Below, piece by piece: positions 1-63,571 of a stretch of 64,000 nt of DNA. The stretch lies in contig NC_077233.1 in the NCBI RefSeq assembly GCF_027887165.1, positions 228,432,872-228,496,871 of the forward strand. Reading direction: 5' to 3'. The position numbers and the translations under genes are program-made. Numbering within the stretch: position 1 is the first letter of the stretch; each line of letters begins with the position of its first letter. The stretch is from Monodelphis domestica (taxonomy: Eukaryota; Chordata; Mammalia; Didelphimorphia; Didelphidae). Below the pieces are notes generated by a model that saw nothing but the letters and a program-made list of their open reading frames with translations, ran no database searches and had not been told where the DNA came from.

Positions 1-153
1 CCATCTCTTGTGATCAAATCAGTATAGTTTACTAATTTGTTATTCTGATTGTCAACCCAAGTTTCTGCAAGGGATTTTTCTTTTTCTGAGTTTAAATCAG
101 CAAAAATAATGGATGAGCTACTACTTTCATCACTTTGAACAGGATACTGCTCT
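1..153 (-). CDS. EIF2AK1: EIF2AK1 exon 9, partial (kinase insert)
   Basis: Codes (R)[19 protein letters not shown] then [18 protein letters not shown] and [13 protein letters not shown], matching human [12 protein letters not shown] and NQNNKSVKYTTNLVIRESG. The acceptor AG is at 154-155. The exon continues beyond the left edge. Confidence 0.96.
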
Positions 154-3100
154 CTAAAGTAAAAGGGGGAAAAAAAAGAAAGACAATGTAAAATAAATGT
201 GAGAAAAGACTGTGTAACAGATAGTGCCCCCAGTCAGACGTCTCTAGTCACAATTGCTATTTAAATACTGATAGGGGATATCTGACAGACGAAAATAATT
301 TACATTTTAGAATAGAACTAAAAAGGAAGGTGTAGCAGTCCAGCCCATAGGTATTATGGAGAGACAAGGATTGTGAGTGAGCACATGGCCATCCTGTGCA
401 TGGCAATGAGCTCTATTCCCAGCGTGGCTGTAGTTTAGGCGCGAAACCTTGCTTCTCCTGTCTCACTCACCTGAGGATAATAACCCCACCTTCACCTTGT
501 CATAATTTGCAATTATCCAATGGCAATACACTAGGTAACTCATCCATATGTATTGAGGCATCATGTAACTGAAGCAAGGTTTCGCGCCTAAACTACAGCC
601 ACGCTGGGAATAGAGCTCATTGCCATGCACAGGATGGCCATGTGCTCACTCACAATCCTTGTCTCTCCATTGTATTGAGCTCATTTGTATATCAAAGAGA
701 ATAAAAGAAATGGGACACAGGAAGTGGACAGGTTTGCAAAGGAGCAACTTCTCCCCTTTCTCTCTCCTCTCTATCTTTCTCCCTCAGGCCTGGCCCTTCG
801 GTCAGGCCTTCCTGTCTCTCTCTCTTTTCCAATGCTAATACCTAGAGTTATCTACCTCCTTTAGTTTCTAATCTCCTTTCCTTCTGAGCTAGCCTTATCC
901 TCTGACCAGTGCAGTGTTAAATTGAGATCATTGGATGGAATAGACTGGATAGTAACTCCCAGTGGTTGGAGCAGGCTGTGGCTCCCAAATATCAATAATT
1001 TATTACTGACTCGTTTATTTACATCTCTAAAGCCGGCTCGTTCACACCCTTCGCGGAATCCAAAACTTCTATCCTGTTACTATCTTCCTTCCTTGAAACC
1101 TCTCGAGGGCCAGGAGGTTTTAGAAGGGAAGGCTTCATTAAGGTACTACTACTTGGTTCCTAATAGTAAAAAAATAATAGTGACAATGGGCAATACCTGA
1201 CATATTTACATATTTTTGGAAGTAAGTACTCTACCCATTCACCTGATCAAAATATTTAACCCTTTTAATACCTGTCCTCTGTCTCATCAGATACCAGCTG
1301 GAGAGATGGCAACTTGACCATAGAAAGTCTCTTATCTGTTGGTTAAAAAATAAAAATAAAATACACAGAGAAATGTAGTCTCAAAAAGATCTTGAATTTA
1401 AAAAAGCATACAGGACCATACATTTGCAGCTGTAAGGGATTATAAAAACCATCCAACCTAACACCTTCATTTTACAAATGAGAAATTTGAGGTCCAGAGA
1501 TCAAGCAGCCTTGCCTAAGTTCACAAAGGCAATACAAAATAACAAGTCTAGGATTCAAATGCAGGCCCTGTCAAAGCAAATCTGGTCATCTTTCCATCAC
1601 ACCTTTCTGCATTACATTAGAGGTTTTTGCTTTGCTCAAACTTGAAGTGAAAAAAAAATTCATTCACAAAGCTCAATTTACCAAATTATTGCTAAAAATA
1701 AGGCAAAAATGTTCATTTACAGTTGTGAAAATAGTACAGCATTAAAAAAGCCACACTTTTAGGAAGTGACCCAAAGAAAATCTTTAACTGTTACATCAAA
1801 TAAATGTTCACCTTGTGGCTGGGCTGAATGAACATGCTCTATCCAAGCTGTGTGATAACCTACAATGTTAGGATGTTGCAGACCCGCCAGCACCTTCACC
1901 TCCCGCAGTACCTGAAAAAGAAAATTGATAAGATTGGGCTTTAAACAGTTTCTTAAAAGTTCAAAGCATCAACTACTATTTATTCTAGGAAAAAACATAT
2001 GAAACTTTTAGTGATTTTGGAATCCTAATACCTGCAGTAACTGGAAAATTTTTTCTGCATTCTATCATGAAAAGGAGATAAATGGCAAGTTTTAATGGAC
2101 ATAACAAATATTATCTTCTATCTGTATATTATTCGAATTACTTTCATATAGTCTTCTCTGGTATCGTTAATCCTTTGAGATAAGGTAGGAGAGTTCAGCA
2201 TTACTCATCCCCATCTTACATGTTGGGAAACCAAAACAATAAGGATAAATGACTAGTCTAATGCTATGCAGCAAATCAGTGGGGAAATTTCTGGAGCTGA
2301 ACCCATCTTGAAATATCTACTGCTAAGCTCTTTGACAATATGCTGCATCCCTTTATTACAAAGTAATAAAATGACATTAGAATTTTTTTTTTATTTTCTA
2401 GTCATGACATTGAAGCACTGCTATATCATGAACTGCCTTCTAAATCTTTAAAAAATTAAACTGTGTTCTGTAGAGTTTAGTGTTAAAAGTATTTTATCAA
2501 AGTATTTGAAAACTGATCATTATGTCTATTATAAAATCAATTTGTACATATATAGACTATATATGTGCATATATAATTAGCTCAATTAGAAGATTAAATT
2601 ATACAGTGTTTTTCAAGAGGCTTAAAAATTCATACCTTCATACAATCCTTTCTAGTGGCTTTCTTGATCAGAATTTTTTTTATTGCATAAAACTGCCTAT
2701 CTAATTTGTTCTTGACCTGAAATTTACAGAAAAGATGAAAATTATCATATGTAAATGACACAAATACATTTATATATTTTGGAGAATTCAAACTTTCACA
2801 ATAGGGTGAATCCAAATTTTAATTCTCCACCTAATTTTTTTAGCCTATTTTAGGCTCTGTGTTCTAGAAGAAGTACGAAAATTCAGAACTGGAGCTGGTG
2901 CATTTCATGGTAATGAACGCTTTTCATGAATCCATTCAACTCAACATATATTTACTTGAAATTTTAATTTCAAAGGGAGTGGGGGGGGGAGGAAAAAATC
3001 AAGACACATTTCATGGAGAGGGTGGCACTAGAGTTTGGCCTAAGAATGAATTGAGATTCCCAAGTACTTGAAGCTTAGAAGCATATGACTTAAGAAGTTC

Positions 3101-13172: not shown

Positions 13173-13378
13173 TTTTTTTTTTTTAAACCCTTACCTTCCG
13201 TCTTGGAGTCAATACTGTGTATTGGCTCCAAGGCAGAAGAGTGGTAAGGGCTAGGCAATGGGGGTCAAGTGACTTGCCCAGGGTCACACAGCTAGGAAGT
13301 GGCTGAGGCCGGATTTGAACCTAGGACCTCCCGTCTCTAGGCCTGGTTCTCAATCCACTGAGCTACCCAGCTGCCCCC
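13173..13378 (-). mobile_element. Marsupial SINE (WSINE1/MON1-like), intact with target duplication
   Basis: Nearly complete copy with a poly-T start on the plus strand. Flanked by the exact 16-bp duplication agcaacaatatattct (13157-13172 and 13379-13394). This makes it one of the younger insertions. Confidence 0.97.
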
Positions 13379-15060: not shown

Positions 15061-15126
15061 TTGGCCCCATCCAAATATGCCTGTGTTCCGTTTGGGGTTT
15101 TTTTGGTTTGTTTTTGTTGTTGTTGT

Positions 15127-15327
15127 TTTTTGTAAACTCTTACCTTCCATCTTGGAATCAATACTGTGTATTGGTTCCAAGGCAGAAGAATGGTAAGGGC
15201 TAGGCAATGGGGTTTAAGTGACTTGCCCAGGGGCACACAGCTGGGAAGTGTCTGAGGTCACCTTTGAACCCAGAACCTCCCTTCTCTAGACCTGGCTTTC
15301 AATCCACTGAACTACCCAGCTGCCCCC
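15127..15327 (-). mobile_element. Marsupial SINE (WSINE1/MON1-like)
   Basis: Reverse-oriented full copy from 'ttgtaaactcttaccttcca' to 'actacccagctgcccc', preceded by a T/GTT-rich tail. Confidence 0.93.
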
Positions 15328-15659
15328 TCTTTTGTTTTTTTTTAAATAGAATTGTAAACAATGTTTATGATAGTTCTTATTACTCTAACCTCACTTTCAT
15401 AATTTTGCGTGTCAACATATTTAATTCTGATCCTCATGTATATCCTTTATTAGGAGATCATATTATTATGGTACATTAATATAGCATAATTGACTCAGGT
15501 ATTCATCAATCATTAGCCACACTGGTTATTTATAGTTTTTAATGATTAAAAATAAAGTTTTTATTACTTTTTCCACAGGTAAGGTTTTTTTTCTTTTTCA
15601 TACTTTGGGCTTTGGAATATCATTGGGATTTCTGATATGATCAATTTTGTGATGTATTT

Positions 15660-19032: not shown

Positions 19033-19237
19033 GGGGGCAGCTGGGTAGTTCAGTGGATTGAGAGCCAGTCCTAGAGATGGGAGGTCCTAGGTTCAAATCT
19101 GGCCTCAGACACTTCCCAGCTGTGTGACCCTGGGCAAGTCACTTGACCCCCATTGCCTAGCCCTTACCACTCTTCTGCCTTGGAGCCAATACACAGTATT
19201 GACTCCAAGACGGAAGGTAAGGGTTTTAAAAAAATAT
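19033..19237 (+). mobile_element. Marsupial SINE (WSINE1/MON1-like), intact with target duplication
   Basis: Full-length copy flanked by the exact 15-bp duplication atattacaatctcaa (19018-19032 and 19238-19252). Confidence 0.97.
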
Positions 19238-23594: not shown

Positions 23595-24599
23595 TTTAAA
23601 CATTATTTTATTTGGTCATTTCCAAACATTATTCATTAGAAACAAAGATCATTTTCTTTTCCTCCCCCCCCATCTCTCCCATAGACAACATGTGATTTCA
23701 CTGGGTATCACATGTGTCCCTGATTCGAACCCATTTCCATTGTTGTTGATATTTGCATTAGAGTGTTCATTTAGAGTCTCTCCTCAGTCATATCCCCTTA
23801 ATCCCTGTAGTCAAGCAGTTGCTTTTTATCGGTGTTTTTACTCCCAGTTTATCCTCTGCTTGTGGATAGTGTTTTTTAGATCCTTGCAGATTGTTCAGTG
23901 ACATTGCATTGACACTAATGGAGAAGTCCATTACCTTCGATTGTACCACAGTGTATCAGTCTCTGTGTATAATGTTTTCCTGGTTCTGCTCCTTTCGCTC
24001 TGCATCACTTCCTGGAGGTTGTTCCAGTCTCCATGGAATTCCTCCACTTTATTATTCCTTTGAGCACAATAGTATTCCATCACCAACATATACCACAATT
24101 TGTTCAGCCATTCCCCAATTAAAGAGCATCCCCTCATTTTCCAATTTTTGGCCACCACAAAGAGTGTACCTATGAATATTCTTGTACAAGTCTTTTTCCT
24201 TATTATCTCTTTGGGGTACAAACCCAGCAGTGCTATGGCTGGATCAAAGGGCAGACAGTCTTTTATCGCCCTTTGGGCATAGTTCCAAATTGCCCTCCAG
24301 AATGGTTGGATCAATTCACAACTCCACCAGCAATGCATTAATGTCCCTACTTTGTCACATCCCCTCCAGCATTCATATTTCCATAGCTGTCATGTTAGCC
24401 AATCTGCTAGGTGTGAGGTGATACCTCAGAGTTGTTTTGATTTGCATCTCTCTGATTATAAGAGATGTAGAGCACTTTTTCTTGTGCTTATTAATAGTTT
24501 TGATTTCTTTGGCTGAGAACTGCCTGTTCATGTCCCTTGCCCATTTATCAATTGGAGAATAGCTTGATTTTTTGTACAATTGACTTAGCTCTTTGTAAA
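23595..24599 (-). mobile_element. 5'-truncated young L1 (3' end) inside an older L1
   Basis: The plus strand starts with a T-run and 'aaacattattttatttgg', the 3' end type shared with 33775 and 50747. Flanked by the exact 16-bp duplication atgattgttgattttt (23579-23594 and 24600-24615). It codes the C-terminus of ORF2 (CWWSCELIQPFWRAIWNYAQ) with breaks. Confidence 0.95.
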
Positions 24600-28012: not shown

Positions 28013-31000
28013 AGGGGGGGGAGAGCTCAAAAAGGAATTGAAAAATCAAATAATAGACGCAGAAGAAAAATGGGAAATAGAAATGAAAATAATGGGGTGA
28101 AAAAGCTTAAAAATTAGAATTAACCAAATGGAAAATGAGACACAAAAATCCAATGAAAAGAGTTTCTTAAGGAGTAGAATTGACTGGAAAAGGAGGCTCA
28201 AAAGTTCATAGAAGATAATCATTCTTTAAAAATTAGAATTAGACAAATAGAAACTAATGACCTATGAGACATCAAGAAATAATAAAACAAAATTCAAAGA
28301 ATGAAAAAAATAGAAAATATGAAATGGCTCATTGAAAAAACAACTGATCTAGAAAATAGATCCAAGAGAGAGAATCTAAGAATTATTGGACTATGTGAAA
28401 GTCACAATAAAAAAAAAACCTAGATATTATATTACAAGAAATTATCAAAGAAAACTGTTTAAAAGAATCCACCTATATCTCCTGAAATAAATCCCTAAAT
28501 GACACCTCCCAGGGATAGTGTACCCAAATTCAAGAGCTCCTGAGCTAAGAAGAAAATACTGCAAACAGCTAGTAAAAAAAAACAATTTGGATATCATGGA
28601 GCCACAGGCAGGATTACACAAGTCTTAGCAGGTTCTACATTAAAGGATCAGAAGAATTGGAATATGATATTCTGGAAGACAAAGGAACTATTTTTACAAC
28701 CAAGAATCACCTACCCAGCAAAAATAAATATATTCTTTGGGGGGAGGAAATGGTCATTTAATAAAATAGATTTCTGATGAAAAGACCAGAATTAAGCAGA
28801 AAATTTGGTAACCAAATACAAGACTCAAGAGAAGCAATAAAAGGGAAATAATAAAGAGGAAATTTTATAGGATTCCATAAGATTGAACTGTTTATATTCC
28901 TACATGGAAAGTTAATATTTGTTACTTTCAATTTTTTTTTACCATTAGAAGATTTTGAAGGAATATACATAGACAAAGGGTGAAGGAGTAACCTGTTTAG
29001 GATCACATGATATGCAAAAAAAAATTCAAGAGGAAAAAAGAGGATTGCACTGAAAGAAAAGAAGAAGAAAAGAGGTAAAATGAGGTAAATTATATCACCT
29101 AAAGGTGTGCAAAAAATATTATAGTGGAGGAGAGGATGAGGGTGGTGATGAGCAATGCTTAAACCTTACCCTCATTCAAATTGATTCAGAGAAGGAGTAA
29201 TAACCATACTCATAGGGGCATAGAATCCTATCTTACCCTATAGAAGTAGGAGATGAATAATATAGGGATGGGGTGGGAAAGGGAGAAATATAAGGGATGG
29301 AAAATTGGGGGTGGGTGATAAAAAGCAGTATACATGTGAGGAAGGGCAGAGTGAAAGGAGGTGGGGGGACAAAAGAGGAAAATAAAATGACAGGGAATAT
29401 GCAGATGGTAATCATAACTGTGAATGTGAATGGGATGAACTCACCCATAAAACAGAAGCAAATAGAGTGGATTTAAAACAAGAATCCTATGATATGTTGT
29501 TTATAAGAAACACATTTGAGTCAGAGAAGCACACACATAGTAAAGGTAAGGGGATGGAACAGAATCTATTGTGCTTCAGCTGAAGTTAATAAAAGCAGGA
29601 ATAGCAATCATGATCTCAGACAAAGCTACAACAAAAATAGATCTAATGAAAAGAGATAAGGAAGGAAATTACATCTTGTTAAAAGGTACAATAGAAAATG
29701 AAGTAATGTCAGTACTAAACATAAACCAAATGATATAGTCTCCAACTTTTTAAGAGAAATTAAATAAACTTCAAGAGGAACTAGACAGTAAAACTATTCT
29801 AGTGGGGACCGACTCAGAACTAGATAAATCTAGCCAAAAAAATAAACAAGAAAGAAATAGGTAAATAAAGGAAATTTTAGAAAAGTTAGATTTAATAGAT
29901 TGCTGGGGAAAATTGAATGGGAATTTAAAAAAAGGAATATATCTTCTTTTCAGCAGCACATGGCACATACACCAAAAAAATGACCATGTACTAGGACATA
30001 AAAACTTCACAAACAAATATAGAAAAGCAGAAATAATTCCTCCTTTTCAGATAAAGATGCAATAAAAATTATAATCAATAAGGGTCAATGGAATGGCAAA
30101 TTAAAAATTAATTGGAAACTAAATAATCTAATTCTAAAAAAGGATAGATCAAAGAACAAGTTATAGAAACAATAATTTCATTTAAGGAGAATGACAATGA
30201 GGAGACAACATAATCTCAATTTATGAGATATAGCCATAGCAGTATTTAGGAGAAAATGTGTGTCTCTGAATTTTATATCAATAGAATAGAGAAAAATCAG
30301 ATAAATAAATTGGGCATGCAACTAAAAAAACTAGAATAAGAACAAATTAAAAATTCCCAATTGAAGACTAAATTGAAAATCCTAACTATCAAAGGATAAA
30401 TTAATAAAATTTAAAGTAAGAGAACTATTGAACTAATTGATAAGATTAGGAGTGGGTTTTAGGAAAAATAAAATAGAGCATTGATTAATTTGATTTAAAA
30501 AAGAAAGAACATCAAATTACCAGTATCAAAAACGAAAGGGGTGAATTCACAACCAATGAAGAGGAAATTAAAGCAATCACTAGGAGCTATTTTGCCTAAT
30601 TACATAATAATGAATCTGCCAATCTAAGTGAAATCAATATTTACAAAAATATAAATTGCCCAGATTAACAAAAGAGGAAATAGAATACTTAAGTAATCCC
30701 ATCTCAGAAAAAGAAATTGAACAAGCTGTCAAAGAACTCTCTAAGAAAAAATCCTCAAGGCCAAATGGATTCACAATTGAATTTTATCAAACAATTAAAG
30801 AACAATTAATCCTAATACTATTTAACCTATTAAGCAAAATGGGCAAAAGAGTCTTACCAAATTCTTTTTATGACACAAATATGGTACTAATACACTAAGC
30901 CAGGAAGACCAAAAACAGGGAAAGACCAATTTTTTTAATTAATATAAATAAAATACTAGCAAAGAGAGCATAGCAAAATATCACAAGGATTATTTACTAT

Positions 31001-31172
31001 GCCCATGTGGAATTTATACCAGGAATGGAAGACTGGTTTAATATTAGGAAAACTATCAGTATAATTGGCCATATCAATAACAAAACTAACAGAAATCACA
31101 AGATTATCTCAATAGATTCAGAAAAGCCTTCTACAAAATACAACACCCATTCTTATTAAAAACACTAGGAAG

Positions 31173-31365
31173 GGGGGCAGCTGGGTAGCTCAGTGGATTG
31201 AGAGCCAGGCCTAGAGACGGGAGGTCCTAGGTTCAAATCTGGCCTCAGATTCCCAGCTGTGTGACCCTGGCTAGGTCACTTAAACCCCATTGCCTAGCCC
31301 TTACCACTCTTCTGCCTTGGAACCAATGCACAGTATTGATTCCAAGATGGAAGGTAAGGGTTTAA
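31173..31365 (+). mobile_element. Marsupial SINE inside L1-B ORF2
   Basis: Full copy with a small internal deletion. The flanking duplication is about 'aaaacactag(g)aag' on both sides, one base different. It therefore postdates L1-B. Confidence 0.93.
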
Positions 31366-33649
31366 AAAAAAAACACTAGAAAGCATAGGAATAAAAGGGC
31401 CTTTCCTTAAAAAGAAAAGTAGTATTCATATTAAAACCAAGTATCATCTGCAACGGGGAAAGGACGGAAGCTTTCTCAATAAGATCGGGGTTGAAGCAAG
31501 GATGCCCATTATCATCACTATTATTTAATATTGTATTAAAAATGCTAGCTTAGCAATAAGAAAAGAAAAAGAAATTGAAGGAGTTAAAAAATAGGCAATG
31601 AGGAAATTAAACTATCACTCTTTGCAAATGATATGATGGTATACTTAGAGAATCTTACATAATCAACTAAAAACCTAAATCAACTAAAAAATGTTGGAAT
31701 AATAACAAGCATAGTTACTGGATAAAAAATAAATGCACACAAATCATCAGCATTTCTATATATTACCAACAAAGTTCAGCAACAAGAGAAAGAAAGAAGA
31801 ATTCCATTTAAAATAAATTTAGACAATATAAAATACTTGGGTATCTACTTGCTAAGACAAACACAAGAATTATATTAACACAATTACAAAACACTTTTCA
31901 CACAAAGTCAGATTTAAATAACTGGAAAAACATGAATTGCTCATAATAAAAATTATGGTACTACCTAAATTAATTTATTTATTCAGTGCCATACCAGTCA
32001 AACTACCAAAAAATTTTTTGTAGAACTAGAAAAATAATAACAAAATTCAACTGTAATAGCAAAAGGTCAAGAATATCAAGAGAACTAATGAAAAAAAAAT
32101 GTGAAGGACGGTGGCTTACCAGTACCAGAGCTCACACTGTACTATAAAGCAATAATCATCAAAACAATTTGTTACTGGCTAAGAAATAGAATGGTGGATT
32201 AGATTAGACATAAATGATGTTATCAATCTGGTGTTTGATAAACCTAAAGATCCCAGCTTTTAGGATAGGAACTCACTATTTAAGAAAAACTGCTAAGAAA
32301 TCTGGAAAACGGTATGGCAGAAACTAAGTATTAACCAATATCTCACACTAATATACCAAGGTAAGGTCAAAATAGGAGAAGGGAAGAATTTATGACCAAA
32401 CAAGATAGGGAACATCACAAGATGTAAAATGATTTATTTTGCCTATAGTAAATTTAAAAGTTTTTTTTTTTTTTACAAACCAAACTAATATAACCAAGAT
32501 TAAAAGGGAAGCAACAAACTCTGGGGAAATTTTGTAACAAATTTTTCTGTTATAGATTTCATTTCTCAAATAAATAAAGATCTAAGTCAAATTTTTATTT
32601 AAAAGAATACAAGCCATTTCCCAATTGACAAATAAATGATCAAAGGATATGAACAAGCAGTTTTCAGATGAAGAAATCAAAGCTTTCAATAAACTTATGA
32701 AGAAATGGTCTAAGTCATTCTTGATTAGGTGAAGTGCAAATTAAAATAACTCTGAGGCACCACCTCACACCTATCTGATTGGTTAATATGATAGTAAAGG
32801 GAAATAATAAGTGTTGGAGAAGATATAGCAAAATTGAGACATTAATGCATTGTCAGTGTCATTGTGAACTGATCCAACCATTCTGGAGGACAATTTGGAA
32901 CTATGCTCAAAGGGCTATAAAAAGTACATACCCTTTGATCCAACAATACCACTACTAGGTCTATATCCCAAAGAGATAAAAGGTGTTGGAGGGATGGACC
33001 TACTTATACAAAAATATTTATAGCAGGTCTTTTTGTGGTGGCAAAGAATTGGAAATTGAGGGGATGCCCATCAATTGGGGAATGGCTGAACAAATTGTGG
33101 CTTTTGATGGTGATGAAATACTATTGTGCTACAAGAACAGGATGATTTCAGAAAGAGCTGAAAAGACCTACATGAACTGATGCAGAGTGAAATAGGCAGA
33201 CCCAAGATAGCATCACACACAGTAACAGCAATATTGTGGAATGATCAACTATGAAAAATTTAGCTACTCTCACAGCAATACGACGATTCAGGACAATTCT
33301 GAAGGACTTATGACAAGGAATGTTAGCCACCTCCAGAGAAAGAACTGTTGGAGTCAGAATGCAGAAGTATACTATTTTACACTTTAGTTTAGTTGAGTCT
33401 TTATTTGGGGGTCTGGGTTTTATATGAATATATTCTTACAAAAATGAACAATATGGAAATGTTTTGTATGATAATACATATATAAACAAGATCAAATTGC
33501 TCATCATCTCCAGAAAGGGGGAGGGAAGGAAGAGAGTGAGATCATTTGGATCATATAACTTTAAAAAACTTACATGGAAAATTGTTATTGCAGGCAACTG
33601 ACAAAATAAAATGTCTTTACAAAAATAATAAACTGGCAAACAGATAAAA

Positions 33650-34149: not shown

Positions 34150-37100
34150 TTACCTTCGATTGTACCACAGTGTATCAGTCTCTGTGTACAATGTTCTCCT
34201 GGTTCTGCTCCTCTCACTCTGCATCACTTCCTGGAGGTTGTTTCAGTCTCCATGGAATTCCTCCACTTTATTATTCCTTTGAGCACAATAGTATTCCATC
34301 ACTAACATATACCACAATTTGTTCAGCCATTCCCCAATTGAAGGGCATCCCCTCATTTTCCAATTTTTGGCCATCACAAAGAGCATAGCTATAAATATTC
34401 TTGTACAAGTCTTTTTCCTTATTATCTCTTTGGGGTACAAACCCAGCAGGGCTATGGCTGGATCAAAGGGCAGACAGTTTTTTATCGCCCTTTGGGCATA
34501 GTTCCAAATTGCCCTCCAGAATGGTTGGATCAATTCACAACTCCACCAGCAATGAATTAGTATCCCCATTTTGCCACATCCCCATCAGCATTCATTACTT
34601 TCCATAGCTGTCATGTTAGCCAATCTGCTAGGTGTGAGGTGATACCTCAGAGTTGTTTTGATTTGCATCTCTCTGATTATAAGAGATGTAGAGCACTTTT
34701 TCATGTGCTTATTAATAGTTTTGATTTCTTTGGCTGAGAACTGCCTGTTCATGTCCCTTGCCCATTTATCAATTGGAGAATGGCTTGATTTTTTGTACAA
34801 TTGATTTAGCTCTTTGTAAATTTGAGTAATTAAACCTTTGTCAGAGGTTTTTATGAAGATTGCTTCCCAATTTGTTGCTTTCCTTCTGATTTTAGTTATA
34901 TTGGTTTTGTTTGTACAAAAGCTTTTTAATTTGATGTAGTCGAAATTATTTATTTTACATTTTGTGACTCTTTCTATGTCTTGCTTGGTTTTAAAGTCTT
35001 TCCCTTCCCAAAGGTCTGACATGTATACTATTCTGTGTTTACCTAATTTACTTATATTTTCCTTCTTTATGTTCATGTCAGTCACCCATTCTGAATTTAT
35101 CTTGGTGTAGGGTGTGAGGTGTTGATCTAATCCTAATCTCTCCCACACTGTCTTCCAGTTTTCCCAGCAGTTTTTATCGAATAGTGGATTTTTGACCAAA
35201 AAGCTGAGATCTTTGGGTTTATCATATATTGTCTTGCTGAAGTCACTTGCCCCAAGTCTATTCCACTGATCCTCCTTTCTGTCTCTTAGCCAGTACCAAA
35301 TTGTTTTGATGACTGCTGCTTTGTAATATAGTTTGAGATCTGGGACTGCAAGGCCACCTTCCTTTGTATTTTTTTTTCATTATTTCCCTGGATATCCTTG
35401 ATCCTTTGTTATTCCAAATGAACTTTGTTATGGTTTTTTCTAAATCAGTAAAGAAGTTTTTTGGAAGTTCTTTGGGTATGGCACTAAATAGATAGATAAG
35501 TTTGGGTAGGGTGGTCATTTTTACTATATTGGCTCGTCCTACCCATGAGCAGTTAATGTTTTTCCAATTGCTCAAGTCTAGTTTTAGTTGTGTGGAGAGT
35601 GTTTTGTAGTTGTGTTCATATAGTTCCTGTGTTTGTCTCGGGAGGTAGATTCCTAGGTATTTTATTTTGTCTAAGGTGATTTTGAATGGGATTTCGCTGC
35701 TGAACTATGTTGGAGATGTATAGAAATGCTGATGACTTATGCGGGTTTATTTTGTATCCTGCAACTTTGCTAAAGTTTTTGATTATTCCAATTAGCTTTT
35801 TGGTTGAATCTCTAGGATTCTTTAAGTAGACCATCATGTCATCTGCAAAGAGCAATAGCTTAGTCTCCTCCTTGCCTATTTTGATGCATTCAATTTCTTT
35901 TTCTTCTCTAATTGCTACTGCTAGCATTTCTAGTACAATGTCAAATAGTAGAGGTGATAATGGGCATCCTTGTTTCACTCCTGATCTTATTGGGAATGCA
36001 TTTAGTTTATCCCCATTGTAGATGATATTGGCTGATGGTTTTAGATATATACTGTTTATTATTTTTAGGAATGACCCTCCTATTCCTATACTTTCTAGTG
36101 TTTTCAATAGGAATGGATGTTGTATTTTATCAAAGGATTTTTCTGCATCTATTGAAATAATCATGTGATTCTTATTGATATGGTTGATTATGTGGATAGT
36201 TTTCCTAATATTGAACCACCCCTGCATCCCTGGTATAAATCCTACTTGATCATGGTGGATGACCCTTCTGATCACTTGATGATGGAGTCTTTTTGCTAGT
36301 ATCCTATTTAAGATTTTTACATCTATATTCATTAGGGAGATTGGTCTATAATTTTCTTTCTCTGTTTTTGATCTGCCTGGTTTTGGAATCAGTACCGTGT
36401 TTGTGTCATAAAAGGAGTTTGGTAGAATTCCCTCTTTGCTTATTATGTCAAATAGTTTGTATAGTATTGGGATTAACTGTTCTCTGAATGTTTGATAGAA
36501 TTCACTGGTGAATTCGTTGGGCCCTGAGGATTTTTTCTTAGGGAGTTCTTTGATGGCCTGTTGGATTTCATTTTCTGATATGGGGTTATTTAAGAATTCT
36601 ATTTCTTCTTCTGTTAGTCTAGGCAGTTTTTATTTTTGTATATATTCATCCATATCACCTAGATTGCTGTATTTATTGCCATATAATTGGGCAAAGTAAT
36701 TTTTAATGATTGCCTTGATTTCCTCTTCATTGGAGGTGATGTCCCCTTTTTATTCTTTGATGCTATTAATTTGCTTTTCTTCTTTCCTTTTTTTAATTAG
36801 ATTGACCAGTACTTTGTCTATTTTGTTTGTTTTTTCAAAGTACCAGCTTCTAGTCTTATTTATTAAATCAATAGTTCTATCACTTTCTATTTAATTAATT
36901 TCTCCCTTAATTTTTAGGATTTCTAGTTTGGTTTTCTGCTGGGGGTTTTTAATTTGTTCGCTTTTTTTTTTTGTTCAAGTTTTTTTATTTGCATTTCCAA
37001 TTGATTGATTTCTGCTCTCCCTAGTTTGTTAATATATGCACTCAGGGATATAAATTTACCTCTGATTACTGCTTTGGCTGCATCCCCAAAGGTTTGAAAG

Positions 37101-37946
37101 GATGTCTCACCATTGTCATTTTCCTCGATGAAATTATTAATTGTTTCTATGATTTCTTCTCTAACTAAACGATTTTGGAGTATCATATTGTTTAGTTTCC
37201 AATTAGTTTTTGATTTGGTTTTCCATGTACCATTAATGATCGTTATTTTTATTGCCTTTTGGTCTGAAAAGGCTGCATTTATTATTTCTGCTTTTCTGCA
37301 TTTGTGTGCCATGTTTCTGTGACCTAATGTATGGTCAATCTTTGTGAATGTGCCATGTGGTGCTGAGAAGAAGGTGTATTCCTTTTTATCCCTATTTACT
37401 TTTCTCCATATGCCTATTAATTCTAATTTTTCTAAGATTTCATTTACTTCTTTTACCTCTTTCTTATTTATTTTTTTATTTGATTTATCTAAATTTGATA
37501 ATGGTTGGTTCAAGTCTCCCACTAATATGGTTTTACTGTGTATTTCTTCCTTCAATTCTCCTAGTTTCTCCATTAGAAATTTGGGTGCTATATTATTTGG
37601 TGCATACATGTTGATTAGTGATATTTCCTCATTATCTAAAGTCCCTTTTAACAAAATATAATTACCTTCCCTGTCCCTTTTAATCAGGTCTATTTTTGCT
37701 TTGGCTTTATCAGATATCATGATTGCCACTCCTGCCTTCTTTCTGTCAGTTGAGACCCAGAAGGTCTTACTCCATCCTTTAATTCTGACCTTGTGGGTGT
37801 CTACCCACCTAATATGTGTTTCTTGGAGACAACATATGGTAGGGTTTTGGATTCTAATCCATTCTTCTATTCATCTACGTTTTATGGGGTGAGTTCATCC
37901 CATTCACGTTCAACGTTATGACTGTCACTTGTGGACTCCCTGGCAT
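34150..37946 (-). pseudogene. L1-C ORF2 (endonuclease and reverse transcriptase), broken
   Basis: The start codon at 37946 gives MPGSPQVTVITLNVNGMNSP. The endonuclease segment 36923-37729 shows GDLNQPLS, SAPHGTFTKIDHTLG and SDQKAIKI; the last has Gln where L1 endonucleases have the catalytic His (SDH). The RT segment 35616-36332 has [28 protein letters not shown] and the catalytic FADDMMVY. C-terminal pieces are at 35258-35575, 34585-35199 and 34243-34569 (CWWSCELIQPFW). About 1265 codons in total, split by several stops and frameshifts. Confidence 0.92.
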
Positions 37947-38661
37947 TTTGATATCCTTCCCTAATTCTAACCTTTCTTCTTCAGCTCTACCTTTTAGTCC
38001 AGTGATTTACTTTAAATCAGTCCCCCTTGTATTTCCCTTTCTACCCTCCTCCCTTCTTATTCCCTCCCTTATTTTCCCCTGTAGTCTTTTTAAAATTCCC
38101 CCCCACCCTCTCCCTCCCTTGTACTGCTTCCCTCCCCACCAGTCTGTTTTTTACCCTTCTACTCCCCTATAGGGCGCAAATCTATTCTCTTCCCCAATGG
38201 ATTGGATTGTTCTTCCCTCTTTGGGTCAGTTTCAAAGTACGTAAGAGTTGAGTATTTCCTATTTCCAACCTCTTTACCCTTCCAGTGTATCGATGTTCTC
38301 CCCCCTCCCGCCATGAGCTTCTTTGTGACATATAAATTTACCCCCGTTTGTTTCTTTTCCCATTTCTTTTAGTCATAACCTCTTTTCTTTTTTAGCTTTA
38401 GTCATGTATATATATATACATACACATGTATATGTATTTATGCATGCATATATCTATATACCTATTTATGTCTTGTCCTTTCATCCTATACAGTTTGTCA
38501 CTGTTCCCTCTCAGTGTAGTTCTTCTAGCTGCTTAGGTGATAGCAACAGTTTTTAAGAGTTGCCAATGACCTCTTTTCTTATAGGGATACATATCATTTT
38601 AACTTATTGAGTCTCTTAAAAAAATTGTTGTTGTTGTTGTTGTTTTTCCCCTCTTTTTTAA

Positions 38662-45656: not shown

Positions 45657-45859
45657 AGGGGGGCAGCTGGTTGGCTCAGTGGATTGAGAGTCAGGCCCAT
45701 AAATGGGAGGTATTAGGTTCAAATCTGGTCTCAGACACTTCCCAGCTGTGTGATCCTGGGCAAGTCACTTGACCCTCATTGTCTACCCCTTACCACTCTT
45801 CTGCCTTGGAACCAATACATAGTATTGATTCCAAGACAGAAGGTAAGGGTTTAAAAAAA
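45657..45859 (+). mobile_element. Marsupial SINE (WSINE1/MON1-like), with target duplication
   Basis: Full copy flanked by the exact 13-bp duplication aaagaatatattt (45644-45656 and 45860-45872). Confidence 0.96.
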
Positions 45860-45914
45860 AAAGAATATATTTGGTCAATCTGATGTTTTTATTCCAAATT
45901 TATAGTGATACTAG

Positions 45915-47534: not shown

Positions 47535-50500
47535 ATTTATTGTTTTGTAGTGTAGTTTGAAATCTGGTATTGCTAGGCCCCTTTCTTTTCTACTTTTTAA
47601 AAAAATTACATTTCATGAACTTTTTCATTTTTTATTCTTCCAGATGAATTTCATTATCTTTCCTAAATCCATAAATTAATCCTTTAGTCATATGATTGGT
47701 ATGAACAAGTAAGTTAAATTACTCAGTATTATAACTTTTATTATATTGGCTCAGCCTACTCATCCATATTTCTCTGAATTACTCTTATTTAATTATGTCT
47801 CTATTTCCATTAATACTTCTTGATAGTTGTATTCATAGAATTCCTGTTTTTGTCTTGGTAGATTCCCAGATACATTTTTGATGACATTTTATAGTTCTTC
47901 CTTCCTTTTTTTTTAAACCTTAACTTCTGTGTTGGAATTAATATTATGTATTGGTTCCAAGGCAGAAGAGTGGTAAGGGCTAGGCAATGAGGGTCAAGTG
48001 ACTTGCCCAGTGGGGTCACACAACTGGGAAGTGTCTGAGGCTAAATTTGAAAGTAGGACCTCCCATCGCTAAGCCTGGCTCTCCATCCACTGAGCCACTC
48101 CAATGCCCCTTGTAGCTATTTCTAAAATGTCTTCCTACTGGGTTTTGTTGGTAATATAAGGGGGGAAATGATGATTTATATGGGTTTATTTTGTATCTTG
48201 CAACTTTGATGAAATTATTGTGTCCATTTAATTTTTAGCTGACTTTCCAAAGTCAACTAAGTAAACCATCATATAATCTGCAAGAAGTGAAAATTCTTTC
48301 TTTTCTGCATATTTTTATTCCCTTGTTTTCTTGTCTTATTGCTATAGTTACCCATTTCTAGCACAATATCAAATAACAGTGGTGATAATGGATACCCTTG
48401 CTTTATTCTTGATCTATTCAGAAAGTTTATCCCCTTCTTGAATATCCCCATAACTTTTAATGTTAACTCCTGGTTTTACATAAGTACTACTTGCCATTTT
48501 AAGGAAATATGCATTTTTCCCCTTTAGTATTAGTAATTTTTGACAGACTAGGTGTATTTTGTCAAAAGTTTTTTCTATATTGATTAATCATATTTTGGTT
48601 ATGATTATAATTTTTTATGTTGAATTATTCCTGCATTCCTGGCATAAATTCATTGTGATCATAGTTTATAATCTTTTTGAAGTGTTAGTATAGCCCTTTT
48701 TGATAATATTTTATTTAAAATTTTTTGTATTGATATTAAGGATATTGGTCATACTTTTTTTTCCTTTACTTTGGCTTTTCCTTGTATAAGTATCAAGACC
48801 ACATTAATATCTTCAAAAGAATTTGGCAGGATCTCCCCAGTTTTTTTTTCAATGATTTCTATAATATTAGAATTAGTTTTCCTTTGAATGCTTGACAGAA
48901 TTCATTTGTAAATACATTATGTCCTGTTTTTCTTTTCATTCTTTAGAAGTTTATTAATGACAGCTTATTTTTCTAACGTTGTTTTATATAAATATCTTGT
49001 TCTTGTTCTGTTAGTCTGGCAATTTCCTATTCTGGTTAATATACACTTATTTTTTAGAAGCTATTGATTTTATTGGCATATGTGTTTGGGCAAAGAAGTT
49101 TCTAACAACTTCATTTTTTTCTTCATTTGCTGTGAATTATATTTTACCTATGTTATTTTTGTTTTCTTTGGAAAACCAAGTGCTTGACATTAATTCATTG
49201 GGTTTTCTTTGTTTTCAATTTTATTCATCTGTTCATTGATTTTTCAGAATTTTTATCTTAGTGTTTATTAAATTTTCTTTAATTTGTTGGTTTTCTAGTT
49301 GCAGTTTCTATTCAGTGATCTTTCTTTGAAGTGTTTAGAAAAATAAATTTTCCCCTAAAATCTTTGACTACACCCCCAAAACCATTATATTATTATGTTT
49401 TCTCTTTGTCTTTCTCTTTGATGAAATTACATATAATTTCTATGCTTTGTTTTTTTGGATAAAATAGCTTTTAGGGTTAAGTTACTTAGCCTTCAATTAA
49501 TTTACTTTTAGTCCTAAGTTACTAATTAATTTTACAAATTAATTTATTTCAAGTCAACTTACTTTCTTCAATAACCATTATTACCAGTAAAAGATGTGTT
49601 TAATAATCCTGCTTTTCTGCATTTTTATGATAGTTTTATGCCATCATACATTGTGGATTTTTATAAAGATGTCGTGCAATGTTGAGAAATATGTTCTATT
49701 CCAACTAGGCTAATTAACAGAGAGATCCATGACATAATAACTTTTCTAGAAAATTTTTAGGTCCTTCTTGTTTATTTTTTCCCCTCTAGATCTGAAAGGG
49801 GTCCATTAAAGTCTCCCCTTATTATAATTTTACTGTCTATTATTCCCTGTACTTTATCTAGCTTTTTCTTTAGCTATTAGAAGCTATGCCATTTGGCTGC
49901 ATATCTTTTAAGTACTGAAATTACTTCACTGTCTGTGGTGCCTTTCAGCATGATATAGTTTTACTATTTATACCTTTTAATCAAGTCTAATTTTCACCAT
50001 TGACTTTTCTGTAATTATGATTACTGCTACTGATTTTTTGGGTTCATCTGAAGCATAATAAATAATTTTCTAGCTTCTTATTTTTTAATTCTATATGAAT
50101 CTTTATATTTTATGTTTCTCTTCCAAATAACATATTGTTGGATTATTTTCTAAACTATTCTTCAATCCCCTTATGTTTTATGGGTGGGTTCATACCAATC
50201 ATATTCACAGTTTATGTTTGTTAATTGTCTTTCCCCTCCATCCTGTTCTCTTATACTTTTTCCCTGTTTGTTTCCTGACCTTCTCTTTACAAAAAAAGGT
50301 TGTAAGAGAGCAGAATTTTGCTCAGCACTAGTGCTGTATGCTTAATGCAATTCTACTACCCTTTCCTGCTCCTCTTTTTTTCCTTTGCCCAGACCCCAAT
50401 CACATTATTTTACTCTTTCTTTACAATCTACCTACTGTGGGGGTTTTTCCTTATGACTACTCCCTCCCTGAATCTACCTTCTCTCTTTTTCTCCATTCTC

Positions 50501-50746: not shown

Positions 50747-52197
50747 TTTTTTTTAAGTAATTTTAAAAAAATTTTAAACATTATTTTATTTGGTCATTTC
50801 CAAACATTATTCACTGAAAACAAAGATCATTTTCTTTTCCTCCCCACCCCCCTTTCCACCACCTTTCCCTCTCCCATAGCCGACGCATGATTCCACTGGT
50901 TCTCACATGTGGTCTTGACTCGAACCCATTTCCCTGTTGTTGGTATTTGCATTAGAGTGTTCATTTAGAGTCTCTCCTCAGTCATATCCCCTCCACCCCT
51001 GTAGTCAAGCAGTTGCTTTTCATCGGTGTTTTTACTCCCACAGTTTATCCTCTGCTTGTGGATAGTATTTTTTAGATCCCTGCAGATTGTTCAGGGACAT
51101 TGCATTGACACTAATGGAGAAGTCCATTACTTTCGATTGTACCACAGTGTATCAGTCTCTGTGTACAATGTTCTCCTGGTTCTGCTCCTCTCACTCTGCA
51201 TCACTTCCTGGAGGTTGTTCCAGTCTCCATGGAATTCCTCCACTTTATTATTCCTTTTAGCACAATAGTATTCCATCACCAACATATACCACAATTTGTT
51301 CAGCCATTCCCCAATTAAAGAGCATCCCCTCATTTTCCAATTTTTGGCCACCACAAAGAGCACAGCTATGAATATTCTTGTACAAGTCTTTTTCCTTATT
51401 ATCTCTTTGGGGTACAAACCCAGCAGTGCTATAGCTGGATCAAAGGGCAGACAGTTTTTTATCACCCTTTGGGCATAGTTCCAAATTGCCCTCCAGAATG
51501 GCTGGATCAATTCACAACTCCACCAGCAATGAATTAGTGTCCCCACTTTGCCACATCCCCATCAGCATTCATTACTTTCCTATGCTGTCATGTTAGCCAA
51601 TCTGCTAGGTGTGAGGTGATACCTCAGAGTTGTTTTGATTTGCATCTCTCTGATTATAAGAGATGTAGAGCACTTTTTCATGTGCTTATTAATAGTTTTG
51701 ATTTCTTTGGCTGAGAACTGCCTGTTCATGTCCCTTGCCCATTTATCAATTGGAGAATGGCTTGATTTTTTGTACAATTGATTTAATTCTTTGTAAATTT
51801 GAGTAATTAAACCTTTGTCAGAGGTTTTTATGAAGATTGTTTCCCAATTTGTTGCTACTCTTCTGATCTTAGTTACATTGGTTTTGTTTGTACAAAAACT
51901 TTTTAATTTGATGTATTCCAGATTATTTATTTTGCATTTTGTAACTCTTTCTAAGTCTTGCTTGGTTTTGAAGTCTTTCCCTTCCCAAAGGTCTGACATG
52001 TATGCTATTCTGTGTTCGCCTAATTTTCTTATAGTTTCCTTCTTTATGTTCAAGTCATTCACCCATTTTGAATTTATCTTGGTGTAGGGTGTGAGGTGTT
52101 GATCTAAACCTAATCTTTCCCACACTGTCCTCTAATTTTCCCAGCAGTTTTTATGAAATAGTGGATTTTTGTCCCCAAAGCTGGGATCTTTGGGTTT
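50747..52197 (-). mobile_element. 5'-truncated young L1 inside the old L1
   Basis: Same 3' family as L1-C. ORF2 C-terminal frames at 51580-52125 (RLGLDQHLTPYTKINSKW) and 51127-51546 (CWWSCELIQPFWRAIWNYAQ) are long but offset. Flanked by an imperfect duplication, 'cctatttcccttcttt' (about 50732) and 'cctattttccttccttt' (52198-52214). Confidence 0.93.
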
Positions 52198-63371: not shown

Positions 63372-63381
63372 ATTTTACCTT

Positions 63382-63571
63382 TTTTTTTAAACCCTTACCT
63401 ATCAATACTGTGTTTTGGTTCCAAGGCAAAAGAGTGGTAAGGGATAGGCAATGGGGGTCAAGTGACTTGCCCAGGGTCACACAGCTAGGAAGTATCTGAG
63501 GCCAGATTTTAACCTAGGACCTCCCATCTCTAGGCCTGGCTCTCAATCCTCTGAGCCACTCAGCTGTTCTC
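63382..63571 (-). mobile_element. Marsupial SINE (WSINE1/MON1-like)
   Basis: Reverse full copy with a short internal deletion near the 3' end. Flanked by tttacctt (63374-63381 and 63572-63579). Confidence 0.92.

Follow-up and report, generated by a model that had tools for sequence, protein, structure and literature searches.

In intron 8 of EIF2AK1 of Monodelphis domestica, a perfect inverted repeat of 100 bp lies within an LTR of a betaretrovirus-like ERV, and its second arm was probably written by one template switch in germ-line DNA replication after the integration of that LTR. The window analysed here is a stretch of 64,000 nucleotides, to which all positions below refer unless a contig is named. 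Although long, the repeat is most likely an ordinary instance of a type of mutation already described; it is also a clean case, in that the donor, the earlier state and the order of events could be read from paralogous LTR copies together with a single marker base.

The inverted repeat in EIF2AK1

The two arms pair at 100 of 100 bases around a spacer of 115 bases, and pairing stops at the first base outside and at the first base inside of both arms. Each arm holds three CpG sites and has a G+C content of 52 in 100, so that both the perfect inverted repeat and the intact CpGs reported in a preliminary description of this DNA are borne out. A chance origin is excluded, since in 39 other copies of this LTR the longest perfect self-inverted repeat of each measures only 9-12 bp, compared with 100 bp here. 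As an RNA of 430 nt in the sense of the gene, the region is predicted to fold with a 100-bp stem at -258.5 kcal/mol (z-score -22; -25 as DNA), and none of 100 shuffles was equally stable in either case. The long duplex that had been proposed for the pre-mRNA is thus upheld as a computed prediction. No described RNA family in Rfam was matched at gathering thresholds by any part of the window.

The gene call rests on the exon at 1812-1914, which matches PDB chain 9rhh_A (E 4.8e-16), listed as eukaryotic translation initiation factor 2-alpha kinase 1. For the exon map, a human EIF2AK1 sequence served as the query and exon 4 was placed by eye. The map and the splice sites put the inverted repeat in the intron that separates the 8th exon from the 9th, as had been described before, in a numbering that would shift with a possible additional non-coding 5' exon. 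The LTR is oriented antisense to EIF2AK1. The features of this part of the window are as follows.

1-153, reverse strand: EIF2AK1 exon 9, kinase insert, extending beyond the window (match E 1.4e-10, exon map)
154-1271, reverse strand: EIF2AK1 intron 8, with the LTR taking up 792 of its 1118 bp (exon map, splice sites)
326-330, no strand: left target-site duplication GAAGG (read at the LTR edge)
331-1122, forward strand: solo LTR of a betaretrovirus-like (class II) ERV, 792 bp, TGTAGCAG...TTTTA (ends common to related copies)
356-455, forward strand: arm 1, the source of the copy, made of ordinary LTR sequence, with point 3 at 356 and point 2 at 455 (in 39 of 39 other copies)
431, forward strand: A-to-T change found at this locus alone and mirrored at 595 (0 of 39 other copies)
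456-570, forward strand: spacer or hairpin loop, ordinary LTR sequence (comparison with other copies)
571-670, reverse strand: arm 2, an inverted copy of 356-455 inserted in place of TCAATA (not present in any of the 39 other copies)
595, reverse strand: mirror of the 431 change, within arm 2 (exact 19-base word)
700-705, forward strand: AATAAA, a possible LTR polyadenylation signal (read in the sequence, role inferred)
1123-1127, no strand: right target-site duplication GAAGG (read at the LTR edge)
1272-1335, reverse strand: EIF2AK1 exon 8 (weak match, E 0.20, backed by splice sites and reading frame)

The host LTR and its relatives

A genome search with a 315-base stretch gave 1385 first-look candidates, 40 of which were scored and then read with their flanks. 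These 40 LTR loci include the present copy and were chosen by similarity to it, not as a random sample, and wherever scoring was confined to the best candidates, the repeat counts from the search are minimum values. Similarity among the copies extends past 356-670 and delimits a common element spanning 331-1122; with these fixed ends and GAAGG on either side, the host element is the LTR of a betaretrovirus-like ERV, solo at this site, an identity established by sequence comparison. With the ends as placed, the LTR terminus is TA in 37 of the 40 copies, and a target-site duplication accompanies most of them, the present one included (exactly 5 bp in 28 copies, 4 bp in one, none in 11). One relative of 813 bp (L034) matches in its 3' part in two pieces with extra sequence between them, and in another (L016) the 3' part matches over about 50 bases only before the match stops. 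The earlier statement that the repeat matched no familiar family did not hold up, as arm 1 and the spacer are the 5' part of this LTR family, for which our literature searches gave no published name.

Relatives with internal sequence point to the kind of virus involved. Two same-strand LTR copies lie 8.7 kb apart on C2 (G000:C2:17419957-17428704, pieces L049-L051), and the interior between them contains frames with RNase H, integrase zinc-binding, integrase core and integrase DNA-binding domains. LTR sequence thus stands at both ends of this provirus, together with a polypurine tract immediately before the downstream LTR and a degenerate primer-binding site. The LTR end joined to a primer-site-like sequence, which we take to be a Lys-type tRNA site, occurs at three places in the genome when up to two mismatches are allowed; only the place on C4 (L030) is confirmed as an LTR, and no pol frame was recognisable by eye in the internal pieces at the three places (L041, L047 and L048). 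The longer pol frame of the C2 provirus best matches PDB entry 7sr6 (E 1.6e-49, listed as Polymerase), followed by 5cz2, 3jca and 7usf (E 4.6e-45 to 1.5e-44, listed as Pol polyprotein or Integrase). These are presumably HERV-K and MMTV proteins, which would place the pol of this one provirus closest to betaretroviruses and HERV-K by its best PDB matches.

The present element therefore resembles class II solo LTRs in its common ends and target duplication, and its relatives resemble betaretrovirus-like ERVs in the polypurine tract and, on our assignments, in the primer site and the nearest pol proteins. In contrast, the target duplication of HERV-K and MMTV is 6 bp, compared with 5 bp here, and the prevalent TA end and the internal inverted self-copy of this one copy set it further apart from class II solo LTRs. 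In the C2 provirus, the frames across RNase H and integrase, of 365 and 150 aa, are still uninterrupted, and given these intact frames, some members of the LTR family may be fairly young.

Origin of the second arm

Comparison with the paralogous copies identifies arm 2 as the extra piece. The check for other copies that had been proposed confirmed arm 1 and the spacer in many places, whereas the second arm, sought in the 39 other LTR copies, was found in none of them. Across the undisturbed junction the other copies read ...AACTGATCAATATGTATTGAGCTC..., and this arrangement is present at 283 places in the genome with at most one mismatch (134 forward, 149 reverse), so that the 39 paralogous copies and these junctions represent, as judged from sequence, the state before the event. 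With up to two mismatches allowed, the left new junction, where GA, the first two bases of arm 2, fit either side, occurs at one place in the 3.59-Gb genome. The right new junction has one exact place genome-wide and a second one on C5 at two mismatches, where no LTR match is present; the reversed pattern, used as a control, likewise gives one match. These junctions agree with the single-copy local inverted duplication that the preliminary description had offered as one outcome. Its rule that many copies would mean a hairpin mobile element would mislead, however, because arm and spacer are abundant as ordinary LTR sequence.

Two other identities for the repeat were rejected. Hairpin or foldback mobile elements (MITEs) have long inverted arms around a spacer, which is also the layout seen here, but the 39 other copies examined have a single arm, and the arms of the present repeat are not the ends of an element, nor do they have their own target duplication. 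A hairpin element should have many two-arm copies, whereas both new junctions are single in the genome, the C5 place being unrelated. A nested second inverted LTR fragment is ruled out by the six-base loss at a site where an insertion would gain a target duplication, and also by the 431 change in arm 2, the exact word of which is found at no other place.

This change also identifies the donor. At position 431 the present copy has T, compared with A in 38 of the 39 other copies and G in one, and the exact 19-base word around this T matches the genome at the two arms only, in a search that would miss any copy with 431 T plus another change inside the word. As both arms share this T and the word occurs nowhere else, arm 2 was evidently copied from arm 1 of this same copy, and thus was made, by this marker, when 431 T arose or afterwards. 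At 100 of 100 bases the inserted piece matches the reverse complement of the nearby sequence, as a template switch at the same locus would leave it.

The most probable course of events is the following. A betaretrovirus-like ERV would have inserted into intron 8 of EIF2AK1 and then been reduced to a solo LTR. During germ-line copying, the new strand would have departed from its template directly past ...AACTGA (point 1) and annealed again, to itself or to the other strand, some 115 bases back, at position 455 (point 2) by means of the 2-bp match GA; it would then have copied 98-100 bases in reverse as far as 356 (point 3) and returned to the normal template six bases past the start (point 4). 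The replication setting and the timing after integration are what we infer, whereas the order of the switch points along the sequence, 3-2-1-4, can be read from the alignment. The four-point model of Loytynoja and Goldman, as outlined in a great-ape survey (PMC7954356), accommodates this order, the short loss and the match of 2 bp at the junction, and the present case also shares with it an inverted insertion adjoining its source and a perfect repeat made in one step. The survey gives 1-4-3-2 and 3-2-1-4 as the majority patterns and notes that a point 2 lying before point 1 permits copying off the nascent strand itself (PMC7954356), and in a second article, a single template-switch event is described as able to create a perfect stem (PMC8794818). 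Under this one-event model, the perfect inverted repeat requires neither selection nor gene conversion.

Some features nevertheless count against the model. The copied length of about 100 bases far exceeds the median of 12 in the gold-standard set of the survey (n = 1503; maximum 128; PMC7954356), and our event is reconstructed from paralogous LTR copies rather than from orthologous genomes. In addition, the right junction has no shared bases, and the simple four-point model does not predict a 1-bp deletion after 454 that coincides with point 2. This deletion (454-455), at the inner edge of arm 1, is private to the present LTR, as is one of about 19 bases downstream of arm 2 (718-719).

The main rival to a switch after integration is a fold-back during reverse transcription, in which the enzyme, working in U3, used its own new strand as template before the altered LTR was integrated. 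We consider this unlikely on balance, though well ahead of the other alternatives. The resulting anatomy would be identical, the 431 change could be an error from the same cycle, and the informative partner LTR has been lost from what is now a solo LTR; however, other copies with these junctions or with the exact 431 word were not found genome-wide. The age of the arms bears on the same point. In a tree of 39 rows, the end branch of this LTR measures 0.031 changes per site, the median being likewise 0.031; L016, with its unmatched 3' part, and the columns of window positions 571-680 and 716-730 were omitted, as L016 and the insert columns distort the tree. Outside the arms, about 567 columns contain 5 changes that are strictly private. 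For arms of the same age as the LTR, the branch predicts about 6 differences between them and the private changes about 1.8, compared with none observed, and on the latter estimate zero has a probability near 0.17 and is still compatible with an origin by reverse transcription. The lack of arm differences therefore leans towards an event later than the LTR, short of proof, and is a weak argument when only strictly private changes are counted.

The absence of differences in 100 arm pairs also accords with the earlier statement that the arms are either young or kept identical by gene conversion, of which the first part fits and the second is unnecessary. Older arms held identical by gene conversion or repeated template switching would likewise show perfect identity and a shared private change, but one recent event suffices for both, and zero differences in 100 are not extreme on the lower age estimate, so that we regard such upkeep as very improbable. 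Inverted duplications also form a known class of sequencing and assembly artefact, here a chimeric read folded back upon itself. Against this, ordinary LTR sequence continues on either side of the repeat, six bases are missing at the join, the LTR ends and the target duplication are intact, and the window contains no N; an artefact appears just as improbable as the upkeep of older arms. A single template switch in germ-line replication is thus the reading that we prefer.

Possible consequences and other repeats

The likeliest reading of the repeat is a neutral scar with no present role. An effect of the intronic hairpin on RNA editing or splicing is possible, but it seems highly doubtful that an ADAR-edited duplex in the EIF2AK1 pre-mRNA would alter the splicing of the kinase-insert exon 9 in this species; if this were true, a regulatory hairpin would have arisen by a single mutational step in an intron that is mostly LTR. 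The case also advises caution, as a perfect intronic hairpin need not imply selection or upkeep by gene conversion. Multi-copy LTRs could, moreover, help to count template switches in genomes that have no close relative for comparison.

Other repeats were observed elsewhere in the window. A large and old inverted pair at 29376-33222 and 34182-37957, with about 960 bases between, aligns in three pieces at 71-73% identity. Parts of it also match 23963-24594 and 51159-51984, which suggests that a single interspersed repeat is probably present here twice, in opposite orientations. A short repeat, interspersed and about 200 bp long, is present in many copies and in both orientations, among them the following.

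13177-13378, 15126-15328, 19033-19234, 31173-31373: copies of the repeat of about 200 bp
45659-45861, 47906-48109, 63380-63566: further copies of the same repeat

The copies at 13177-13378 and 19033-19234 are inverted relative to each other at 96% identity, and this pair could possibly form an RNA duplex as well.
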